Shown here: positions 502-52,052 of the stretch, piece by piece | Layout of the letters: every line of letters begins with the position of its first letter | Numbering within the stretch: the stretch's first letter is position 1 | Source of the DNA: Actinoalloteichus hoggarensis | GTDB lineage: Bacteria; Actinomycetota; Actinomycetes; Mycobacteriales; Pseudonocardiaceae | DNA length: 64,000 bases | Assembly (NCBI RefSeq): GCF_002234535.1 | Contig: NZ_CP022521.1 | Location: 2,976,001-3,040,000, forward strand | Reading direction: 5' to 3' | Program-made: the position numbers and the translations under genes | Notes under the pieces: model-generated | What the model was told of the DNA's origin: nothing | Databases searched by the model: none | What the model saw: the letters and a program-made list of their open reading frames with translations, nothing else

Positions 502-3500
502 CTAGTCGACCGAGACGGCGACCGTCGCCGAGGTCCGCACCCCGGCGTCGTCGGTCACCGTCAGTCGTGCGGTGAACGGCCCGCCTCGCGTGTACTCGTG
601 ACTCGCGGTCTCGCCGTGGACGTACTGGTTGTCGCCGAACTCCCAGTGGTGATCGACGATCTCTCGGCCCTCCGGCACGGTCACCTCGGCGCTGAACTCC
701 ACTGTCAGCGGTGCGGTGCCGGCGGCGGGAGTCGCCGTCGGCACCACCGTGGCCGAGATCTCCTCCTTGGTGACGCCCTGGCCGTTGAAGTGCAGCCAGT
801 CCACCGACATCAGATCGTGGCCGTCGGGCGTCCACTCGGGATTGTCGAACACCAGGTAGAGCGTGACCGGGCCGCCGGGATCCGCCAGCGGCACGGTCGG
901 CGAGATCACCGCTCCCCAGCCGCCCGTGTTCTCGACGTCCACCGAGCCCAGCAGTTCACCGTCCGGCCCGTCGGCTCGGAACTCCACCGTGCCGCCGATG
1001 CCCGCGGAGCCGACGCCGAGGGTGACCGAGTCGATGCCGGTCAGATTGATCGGATCGTAGGCGACCCAGTCGCCGTGCTCGATCTCGCCGATCCGGTGGC
1101 CTGCCGAGGAGTCGTCACGAGCCAGGGCCTCCACCCCGCCGTTCTCCCCGCCGGTGTCCTCGAAGTGCTCGGCCTCCTTGCGCTTGGGCTCCAGCGTGGC
1201 GTGCGCGGAGCCGACGAGCGGTGGGACGCCGTTCACACCGCCGCCGTCCTGGTACTGCGCGCTCAGCGCCGCGTAGAGGTTCTGTCCGGGTCCGTGGCTG
1301 TCGCCCTGGTCGGTGGTGATGTCGCCCTGACAGCCGGTCACGTTGTCCATCGGATGCAGGTGATCGTCGTGGCCCAGCTGCGACTGCACGACGACCTTCG
1401 AACAGTCGATCTCGGCGTCCTCGGCGTCGGTCACCTCCACGGTGAAGGGGATGGTGTCGCCGAAGTCGAACAGGCCGCCGTGGGCGGGCAGCGTGATCGC
1501 CACCTCCGGCCGGGTGTTGCCGACCGTGATCGTGGTGACCGCCACGCCCGCCAGCTCCGTCTCCGGATCGGTCACGGTCAGCCGCGCCGAGTACTGCCCG
1601 TCATCGGGGTAGACGTGGGTCGGATTCCGCTCGGTCGAGTCGACCGAGCCGTCGCCGTCGAAGTCCCACTCGTAGACCACAGACTCGCCCGCGCCCACGC
1701 CGGAGCCCTCACTGGAGAACGTGACCTCCAGCGGACCCTGTCCGGAGTCGGGCGATGCCGAGACACGCGCCGTGGGAATCCGGCCCTCGGCGACGTAGTC
1801 GATCCGGTAGATGCCCGAGCCCTCGTTGCTGCCGCCTCGGCCCGTGCCGCTGCCCTCCCCGAAGTCGATGACGTACAGGGATCCGTCCGGCCCGAACTCC
1901 GCCTCGAAGGGCTGGACCCACTCCAGGTCCTCGAAGACGCCGTTGATCGAGAGCAGGTCGCCCGCCCGCGTGGGCTCGAACCGGGGGTCGGTGAACTCCT
2001 GGTCCGTCTCGTGCACCGACATCGTCTTGAACCACTGGCGGGTCAACTCGTAGGTGAACCACTTGCCGTCGAAGTACTCGGGGAACTTCGTGATCAGCGG
2101 GTTGTCCTCGTCGTAGGCGTAGACCGGGCCCGCCATCGGGCCGCCGCCGCCCGTGCCCAGCTCCGGGAACTCCGCGGACTCCGAGTAGGCGTAGTGCACC
2201 CAGGCGGGGTCGGCGGGCGGCAGCTCGGTGAGGCCGGTGTTGTTCGGCGAGTCGTTCACCAGGGCAGTGCAGTCGAACGGCTCACCGGAGGTGCCGGTGG
2301 CGAAGTCGTAGTCGTTGAACGGGGTGTTGTCGCCCGTGCAGTACGGCCAGCCGCGGTTGCTCGCCTCCGTGATGCGATCGAACTCGACCGTGCCCTCCGG
2401 GCCTCGATCCGGGTCCGCCGCGCGGGCGTCCGGCCCGTAGTCGCCGACGAGCAGCGCGCCGGAGGCCGAGTCGACCGTGATGCGGAACGGATTGCGCATG
2501 CCCATCACGTAGATCTCCGGCCGAGTCAGCTCGGTGCCCTCGGGGAACAGGTTGCCCTCGGGGATCGTGTAGCCCCCGTCGGCCTGCGGGGTGATGCGCA
2601 GGATCTTGCCGCGCAGGTCGTCGGTGTTGCTCGACGTGGCCTGGGCGTCCCAGGCGCGTCGGCCCTCCCGCTCGTCGATCGGTGAGAAGCCGTCGGAGGC
2701 GAACGGGTCGGTGTTGTCGCCGGTGGCGATGTAGAGGTCGCCGCCGTCGTCCATGGCCAGCGAACCCGCCATGTGCGAGTTCGCCCGGCCCTCGCCCCGA
2801 AAGGTGGGGATCTCCAACAGTCGAGCCTCGGACGCCTCGTCGACGCGGTCGCCGTCCACCGTGAAGCGGGAGACGTTCAGCCGGTTCTCCTCTTTGTCGG
2901 AGTAGAGCAGGTAGAGGAAGCCGTTCTCCTCGAACGCCGGGTCCAGGGTCAGGCCGAGCAGCCCGTCGGACTGGCTGGTCATCTCGGAGGTGTACTCGAA
3001 GTCCAGGGCGGTGGTCACCGACAGCGTCTCCTGGTCGACGATCTTCAAGGCACCGGTGCGTTCGATGTAGAACACCCGTCGGTCGGGTGCGACCGCGAGT
3101 TCGAAGGGATCGGCGAGCCCTTCGGTGACCAGCGGGATGCGCTGGAAGCTTCCGGTCCTGGTGGCCGAGCAGTCGCCCTCGGCCGCGCCCGCCGCCCACT
3201 CGATTCCGCCGAGGAGGTGGCCGAGGAACAGTTCGTCGGAGAAGTCCTCGCTCGCGTGGCCGCCCGCGGTGAACCAGGAACGTCCGCCGTCATAGTTCTG
3301 ACACCAGGAGAACGGGTGATCGACGCCCTCGTCGAGCCCCTCGATCCCGTCCCGCACCTTGATCTGGGCCAGAGTGTGCACGTTGCCCGTCGGGTTCGCG
3401 GTCCAGTTGTACCACTCCTCCGTGCGCTCCCAGAGTTCCGGGAGGCCTTCGGTGGAGGGATGCGCGCGGTCCAGCACCTTCACCCGGCCCGGCTGGATCG

Positions 3501-48358: not shown

Positions 48359-50777
<2,419 letters not shown>

Positions 50778-50802
50778 GGTGCTGTCCCCCATGGGGTTAA
50801 TC

Positions 50803-50835
50803 TTGCAGGACGTGCAGAACGTGCACAACCTGCAA
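50803..50835 (-). promoter_or_regulatory. Nested 33-bp TetR operator
   Basis: Outer arms TTGCAGG (50803-50809) and CCTGCAA (50829-50835) and inner arms GTGCA (50812-50816) and TGCAC (50822-50826) are perfectly symmetric about GAACG, with two bases between outer and inner arms on each side. On the minus strand TTGTGC (50823-50828) and CAAGAT (50800-50805), 17 bases apart, could be the promoter, which the operator would cover. Confidence 0.8.
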
Positions 50836-51053
50836 ATCTCACACTGATGCGTGAGTGTGGACACGTCTTCGGCGGCACCCAGGGTCGGTTCAGGGCAGAG
50901 AAGTGACGCTGTGTGAACGCAGGCGGGTGGGCGCCGAGCCGTGCTGCCGGGGCTCGGCTCCCACGGTCTTGTTCGAGTCTTCTCGACGACGGCCGCGCCG
51001 GTGGAGGGCCGCGCCGGTCACAGGCGAGCGGGCCGCCGACCTCGACGGGCACC

Positions 51054-52052
51054 TCAGGTCTGCTCGTCCCGCGGCGATGCGGCGAGGGGCAGCAGCCGGG
51101 GGATCACGCGGACGTAGAGCACCATGCCCACCACCTCCACCAGCGTCTGCGTGACCACGACCAGCGCCGCGACGGCCAGCGCGTCGGGCAGGGCCAGCGC
51201 GAGCGGCAGCACGACGAGGGAGTTGCGGGTGGCCCCGCTGAACACGACCGCACGGCCTGCCCGCGCGTCCAGCCGGAAGAGGCGGGCCATGCCGAGTCCG
51301 GCGAAGGGCATCACCACGAGGAAGGCGAGGTAGAAGGGCACCACGACGAGTACGGCGGAGACGTCGCCGCCGAGGGCGGGGACCTGTGAGGCGACCACCG
51401 TCGCCAGGGTCCCCGCCATCAGCGGCACCATCGTGGTGCCCGCTCCCGTCGCGACGGCCCGTCCGGCGGGTCCGCGGGCCGCCCAGGCCTGCGTGAGCCA
51501 GGCCGCGGTGAGCGGGATGAGGATCAACACGACGAACGCACGCACGAAGGGTCCGAACTCCACCACGTCGGCCAGGTCGGGGCCGAGGAACAGCAGCAGG
51601 AAGAGCGGCAGCAGTGCCATCTGCGACACGAGCAGCAGCGGCGTCGCCGCGAGCAGCCGTCGGCCGCTGCCGCCCGCCAGACGGCAGAACACGATCACGT
51701 AGTCCACACACGGGGTCAGCAGCACCAGCAGCACGCCGAGGCGGACGGCCCGGTCGGCGGGCAGCAGCAGGAACAGGGCGGCCACGACCAGCGGGACCAC
51801 CGCGAAGTTCACCGCCAGGGTGGCGGCCAGGAAGCGTCCCTCGCGGAAGGATCGCACCAGGTCCGCGGCGGGTACCTGGAGGAACGTCACGTACAGCAGG
51901 GCGCCCAGCACGGGGTTGATCGCGTGCTCGAGCGCGGGCCCCGCGGCGGGGACGGTCCAGCCCGCGATCGCGCCCGCCGCCATCGCCGCCAGATAGACGG
52001 CGACCTGGTGTCGTTCCAGCCGGGCGGCCAGTGCCGCCGCGCCTCGTGTCAT
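51054..52052 (-). CDS. ACR3-like arsenite / bile acid:sodium symporter family transporter
   Basis: A 332-residue membrane protein with about ten helices. LTPCVDYVIVFCRLAGGSGR in the middle carries the conserved Cys of ACR3 arsenite exporters, and ATPLLLVSQMALLPLF and GATRNSLVVLPLALALP follow the family pattern. GAGGGG precedes the ATG. ACR3 proteins expel arsenite or antimonite, but no arsR, arsC or arsT gene is adjacent, so a different anion or organic acid is possible. It is transcribed alone on the minus strand. Confidence 0.85.
   Translation of the reverse strand: MTRGAAALAARLERHQVAVYLAAMAAGAIAGWTVPAAGPALEHAINPVLGALLYVTFLQVPAADLVRSFREGRFLAATLAVNFAVVPLVVAALFLLLPADRAVRLGVLLVLLTPCVDYVIVFCRLAGGSGRRLLAATPLLLVSQMALLPLFLLLFLGPDLADVVEFGPFVRAFVVLILIPLTAAWLTQAWAARGPAGRAVATGAGTTMVPLMAGTLATVVASQVPALGGDVSAVLVVVPFYLAFLVVMPFAGLGMARLFRLDARAGRAVVFSGATRNSLVVLPLALALPDALAVAALVVVTQTLVEVVGMVLYVRVIPRLLPLAASPRDEQT

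Follow-up and report, generated by a model that had tools for sequence, protein, structure and literature searches.

A ladder of four TGCA words upstream of a tetR–efflux pump gene pair in Actinoalloteichus hoggarensis: a probable double operator for side-by-side TetR dimers

Among described TetR-family regulators, MftR, the QacR group, RolR, EilR and AtsR come closest to the system treated here, a ladder of four TGCA words (rungs) upstream of a tetR gene of Actinoalloteichus hoggarensis, within a 64,000-nucleotide stretch of contig NZ_CP022521.1 (positions 2,976,001 to 3,040,000; hereafter the window, whose numbering is used for its features). The palindrome of MftR from Mycobacterium smegmatis, T-N2-GGCA-N5-TGCC-N2-A, was derived from an alignment of 83 mycobacterial sequences and lies in a footprinted 27-bp operator; MftR responds to long-chain acyl-CoAs (PMC8728441), which for the ligand of the present TetR provide a lead at most. 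The two proteins are relatives (PDB 8x0a, E 3.8e-5) and share an xGCA-N5-TGCx operator with a half-site period of 9 base pairs (bp), along with the Pfam domain TetR_C_14, named after the C-terminal domain of MftR. The targets of MftR, however, are mycofactocin genes, and its 27-bp footprint contains a single palindrome, whereas the window contains TGCA rungs, two apparently abutting operators and an efflux pump as the putative target.

QacR dimers occupy overlapping inverted repeats (PMC6449355) and have reading heads ~37 Å apart (PMC4150764). The long sites (22–32 bp) that receive two TetR-family dimers in QacR, CgmR, CprB and Ms6564 resemble the ladder, and for QacR and CgmR a connection with drug resistance is known (PMC4150764, PMC9210681); unlike in these systems, the predicted operators of the window abut without overlap, with a 9-bp half-site spacing and a 17- or 18-bp operator spacing, as judged from a test on sequences. 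RolR of Corynebacterium glutamicum likewise uses a 29-bp operator with two short palindromes and a pair of dimers, but its palindromes differ in sequence and spacing, whereas the ladder has four equal rungs in one period (PMC9210681). EilR has two operator copies, eilO1 and eilO2, before a pump gene, though as separate sites of 24 bp each, 36 bp apart by their printed positions (PMC6127294). AtsR, also of C. glutamicum, belongs to the TetR family and represses drug exporter genes; its half-sites likewise contain TGCA, but are arranged as TGCAA-N2-TTGCA in another order and spacing and at one site (PMC9210681). A literature search on the motif and on TetR operators in tandem returned nothing nearer than these systems; most subscription journals lie outside its coverage, and the arrangement is not claimed as unpublished.

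The data presented below have led us to propose that the ladder is probably the autoregulatory double operator of a tetR–pump operon, bound by two side-by-side TetR dimers. The element, TTGCAGGACGTGCAGAACGTGCACAACCTGCAA (50803–50835), contains four TGCA rungs at a constant 9-bp step, which Tandem Repeats Finder reports as period 9 with 3.4 copies. An earlier note made from the letters of this DNA gave its sequence and coordinates correctly and described it as a perfectly symmetric 33-bp operator with nested arms. The outer 7-mers and inner 5-mers do pair about one centre, but only 24 of the 33 positions equal their own reverse complement, the 14-nucleotide arms are 86% complementary and the central 5 bases show no symmetry. 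Much of the symmetry that does exist arises because TGCA is its own reverse complement. The core GCA-N5-TGC, of the MftR type and with the same 9-bp half-site period, is present in three copies within 50804–50834. In the tetR sense (minus strand), rungs 1 and 2 form the putative distal operator TTGCAGGTTGTGCAC (50821–50835, predicted promoter positions −43 to −29) and rungs 3 and 4 the putative proximal operator CTGCACGTCCTGCAA (50803–50817, predicted −25 to −11), each with a perfect TGCA-N5-TGCA core; rungs 2 and 3 make up a middle register, GTGCACGTTCTGCAC (50812–50826, same strand), a third possible operator whose use would exclude both others. A four-rung ladder occurs once in the window, compared with none in 100 dinucleotide shuffles of it, and nowhere else in the 6.6-Mb genome, which has two three-rung ladders at other places. 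The strict form TTGCA-N5-TGCAA is absent from the rest of the genome and no wider regulon is seen at that strictness; the two operators of the window miss the strict form as well, and the genome-wide scan did not extend to looser patterns of two rungs.

The unit of recognition was sought upstream of homologous tetR genes, for which 112 loci were reduced to 104 nonredundant ones (less than 80% ungapped identity over the upstream 130 bases); L001–L004, L115 and L116, which are loci of the same genome or of the congener G076 and mostly duplicates, were left out before counting. Two TGCA words at a distance of 9 occur in 36 of the 104 upstream regions, compared with 0.1 in mononucleotide shuffles, and none of the 15 other self-complementary tetramers does so in more than three loci. 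The next most frequent distances, 8 (18 loci), 17 (16), 18 (14), 27 (12) and 26 (10), are those expected if two pairs with a 9-bp period stand 4 or 5 bases from each other. A scan over somewhat different regions put the homologues with a perfect TGCA-N5-TGCA core before tetR at 34 of the 104. TTGC and GCAA are found with a gap of 7 in 29 loci and with any other gap from 0 to 15 in at most two; once this relaxed motif is admitted, 40 loci have an operator before tetR. When a second operator was defined as a match to at least 6 of the 8 core bases, 22 of the 34 perfect-core loci carried one further upstream, 13 of them at −18 and the other 9 at −17, while other matches between −10 and −45 fell at −27 (8 loci), −26 (5), −36 (3), −33 (2) and, once each, −34, −35 and −41. 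The 9 bp within an operator are thus constant, and from one operator to the next there are 17 or 18 bp, which identifies the left and the right rung pair as the units. By this rule, an adjacent rung pair is the predicted operator of one dimer, and the ladder consists of two abutting operators, not of outer and inner arms.

This assignment agrees with the geometry of TetR and SimR. Nine bp span ~31 Å along B-DNA, and reading heads are 31–32 Å apart in TetR and SimR and 37–38 Å apart in QacR and CprB (PMC4150764); adjacent rungs should therefore suit one dimer, and rungs 18 or 27 bp apart would be too far from each other. In the tree clade that holds the window (17 rows), 13 rows have double sites, two have single sites and two have none; the support of the clade is 98/75 with its fork not starred, and the tree has long branches (L109 and L026 among them), so only clade counts were used. 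All five ladder-associated TetR proteins examined (window, L006, L073, L119 and L133) contain TetR_C_14.

The ladder also holds a defined place relative to the gene it precedes. The tetR gene occupies 50166–50792 on the minus strand if its best supported start, ATG 50792–50790, is taken, and is probably leaderless. Its product scores 43.2 bits for TetR_N (PF00440; cut-off 24) and 30.7 bits for TetR_C_14 (PF17754; cut-off 22.7), placing it in the TetR family and in the group with the MftR C-terminal domain, and it stays below the MftR equivalog TIGR03968, at 68.5 bits (protein P0001) against a cut-off of 224.9. In 27 of the 40 operator-bearing loci, the window included, the start codon lies 10–12 bp past the operator, where the start was taken as the first in-frame start after the operator, a choice that favours short distances. 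An A at operator position 14 and a T at position 18 are present in 25 of these 27 loci, G076 being one of the two exceptions. Taken for a −10 hexamer (for example AAGAAT or AATAAT), the bases in question would put the transcript start on the start codon. Extended −10 promoters carry a TG where the TG of the last rung falls, and in the window the predicted extended −10 element is TGC-AAGATT (50799–50807, minus strand), its hexamer overlapping the proximal operator by 2 bases. The 10–12-bp spacing thus suggests a leaderless, extended −10 promoter in this family of loci. Placement is not universal, as five loci (L014, L025, L029, L032 and L040) start 22–23 bp from the operator.

The same spacing favours 50792 over 50777 as the tetR start of the window. 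Two congeners entered the family search, G076, whose TetR is orthologous (81% identity), and G043, which has distant matches only (best E 2.5e-14). In G076, the downstream ATG (window 50777–50775) is replaced by ACG and an in-frame TAG stands just upstream of the ladder, which together favour ATG 50792–50790 as the real start. A distance of 25 bases between ladder and tetR start, as first reported, is right for the downstream ATG, and the better supported start is only 10 bases away.

Comparison with G076 further indicates which part of the ladder is conserved. All 16 rung bases are kept, as opposed to 10 of the 15 spacer bases (Fisher one-sided p 0.018), while the left outer arm TTGCAGG has become GTGCACG. 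The nested arms are therefore not the conserved part, and the division into outer and inner arms finds no support either in this congener, in which the outer arms are broken and the four rungs persist, or in the homologues, which hold the 9-bp period within operators and vary between 17 and 18 bp among them.

The tetR stop codon is followed, ~125 bp further on and in the same orientation, by a gene for an efflux pump of the major facilitator superfamily, DHA2/EmrB type (48359–50041, candidate start GTG 50041 behind AGGAG), whose product scores 262.1 bits for TIGR00711 against a cut-off of 230.2. Of the 36 loci with a TGCA pair, 25 carry a pump homologue that follows tetR in the same orientation within 600 bp, as do 7 of the 68 others, with flanks of varying length. 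In 22 loci without an operator before tetR, the pump gene comes first on the same strand, and the operator would then be expected before the pump. After seven loci with too little DNA were left out, 15 were scanned, and 13 of them carry one of the two motifs, TTGC-N7-GCAA or TGCA-N5-TGCA, in the 400 bases that precede the start of the pump match, compared with 0.08 in shuffles; other gaps from 0 to 12 occur in at most three loci. Nine of these 13 have two sites 34 bp apart, twice 17.

In the model that emerges, each neighbouring TGCA pair, 9 bp from centre to centre, would be the site of one TetR dimer, and two dimers would abut with centres 18 bp apart, on rungs 1–2 and on rungs 3–4. We infer that this TetR binds the ladder and that the bound dimers, by covering the −10 and −35 regions of a leaderless promoter of the extended −10 type with its TG inside the last rung, would keep tetR and the pump gene off as a shared transcript until the TetR_C_14 domain takes up a ligand and the dimers dissociate. 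Position, conservation and the homologue rule make it very probable that the element is an operator of this very TetR, as first suggested, and since the site has room for two dimers, the two-dimer claim of the earlier note may be right. Its proposal of a promoter for the tetR–DHA2 operon holds in that the position fits and the pump follows on the same strand, but it found no echo in a strict sigma-70 and terminator scan.

Several observations weigh against this model. That scan (50700–51100) returned nothing, which agrees with a weak −35 element yet is a caution, and the −10 hexamer AAGATT is poor. The conservation test is a small sample with five changed spacer bases, all in spacers 2 and 3; spacer 1, which separates rungs 1 and 2, is the same in both species, as is much of the flanking sequence, and 22 of the 33 positions are still symmetric in G076, mostly through the rungs. 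Among the 34 perfect-core homologues, 12 lack a second site at 17 or 18 bp; core-like matches at −9 (14 loci) and +9 (15 loci) represent overlapping registers with one rung in common, and some others lie downstream (for example +18 in three loci and +27 in two). No operator before tetR is recognised in 64 of the 104 homologues even by the relaxed motif, and 51 finally lack one before tetR or pump, 7 of these with too little DNA at the pump. The pump-first loci are related, mostly Curtobacterium, and stand for few independent events. Single replacements in the MftR palindrome failed to abolish binding (PMC8728441). The bare four-rung pattern is not enriched, being found in 30 of 390 family genomes while the reversed (ACGT) control is found in 72, counted by eye, and several of the ladders in other genomes are perfect tandem repeats or coding-like repeats; significance of the pattern as such was accordingly dropped as main evidence, and the case rests on position and conservation.

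The alternative that survives best, though it appears rather unlikely, is that a single dimer binds the pair next to the −10 element, or the middle pair, and that the remaining rungs are relics or serve as a reserve. TetR-family dimers usually occupy a single operator of ~15 bp (PMC9210681), and the homologues without a second site would be accounted for. G076, however, keeps all four rungs while spacers 2 and 3 change, and most rows of the window's clade (13 of 17) have the double site.

A nested or interleaved arrangement, in which two co-operative dimers share one centre with overlapping half-sites, is less probable still and on balance improbable. It draws on the one approximate dyad of the 33 bp, largely retained in G076, and on the two dimers that QacR (28 bp), Ms6564 (31 bp) and CgmR (32 bp) accommodate on sites of like length (PMC4150764), Ms6564 (PDB 4jl3) being a distant sequence relative of this TetR (E 7e-7). 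Against this stand the distances from rung 1 to rung 4 (27 bp) and to rung 3 (18 bp), which should lie beyond the reach of one dimer, the variation of homologues in the distance between pairs and not within them, and the loss in G076 of the outer arms beyond TGCA. The QacR type of operator named in the earlier note is thus a poor fit, as overlapping repeats and reading heads ~37 Å apart do not match rungs spaced by 9 bp, at least by the sequence test.

In the window, the frame upstream of tetR (50793–50864, minus strand) is open to a GTG at 50864, and because 9 bp equal three codons the ladder reads there as a Cys-x2-Cys run, CEICRLCTFCTSC. It is extremely unlikely, in spite of this open frame and of the repeat-like or coding-like ladders elsewhere, that the element encodes part of a longer TetR beginning at that GTG or is a functionless chance or simple repeat, given the place of the operator 10–12 bp before the first in-frame start in most operator-bearing loci and the upstream TAG of G076, on which the coding reading was rejected.

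The preferred reading, a double operator for two abutting dimers, describes a neat and conserved version of autoregulated TetR control over a pump, a type of switch that is already well known, and it leaves the general picture of TetR–pump regulation unchanged. It does supply a compact and predictable operator code for many actinobacterial TetR_C_14 regulators, namely TGCA-N5-TGCA, often repeated 17 or 18 bp further upstream and often with the start codon ~11 bp downstream, which could be used for operator calls, for start-codon correction and for target prediction. The last use is suggested by L125, one of the four loci (L116, which is the window, L119, L125 and L133) that have the full TTGCA...TGCAA form among the 30 found by the bare ladder pattern. 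Three of the four (the window, L119 and L133) adjoin a TetR_C_14 regulator. In L125, the full ladder (about 1501–1531 of that locus) precedes a DUF3703 gene (1211–1468, minus strand), and no match to this TetR was found in its 3 kb; in L119, a DUF3703 gene follows the ladder-bearing tetR. The L125 gene may be a target controlled from elsewhere in its genome. Of the remaining 26 pattern loci, only that of G076 matches this TetR with an E value under 0.001. The homologues also offer a natural system for the effect that a 1-bp change in spacing between abutting TetR dimers has on joint binding.

Since TGCA is self-complementary and the period constant, the ladder contains three overlapping registers (rungs 1–2, 2–3 and 3–4), which opens a further, distinctly speculative and improbable reading, a dose-dependent switch between one and two dimers. 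A dimer in the middle register would block the other two, and two dimers would be forced to the outer registers, creating a threshold from spacing alone. If true, the longer arrays of relatives (matches at −35 or −36, and the 34-bp pump pairs in nine loci) would represent a growing row of dimers.

Three minor observations concern operator spacing in the homologues. In L057, L065, L069 and L109, operator-like matches lie −35 or −36 from the proximal operator, suggesting three-operator or five-rung arrays. In Curtobacterium loci such as L059, L060, L062 and L064, a weaker operator-like stretch can be seen by eye midway between the two pump operators spaced by 34 bp. L014, L018, L025, L029 and L032 form a clade with 17-bp operator spacing; all but one of them have their first in-frame start 22 bp past the operator, which would place the −10 element further downstream there. 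Finally, in the window itself, a 14-bp inverted repeat (93%, loop 10) occupies 50927–50964, between the gene of an SBF-like transporter (51054–52052, minus strand) and the tetR promoter, and was given no call by the terminator scan.
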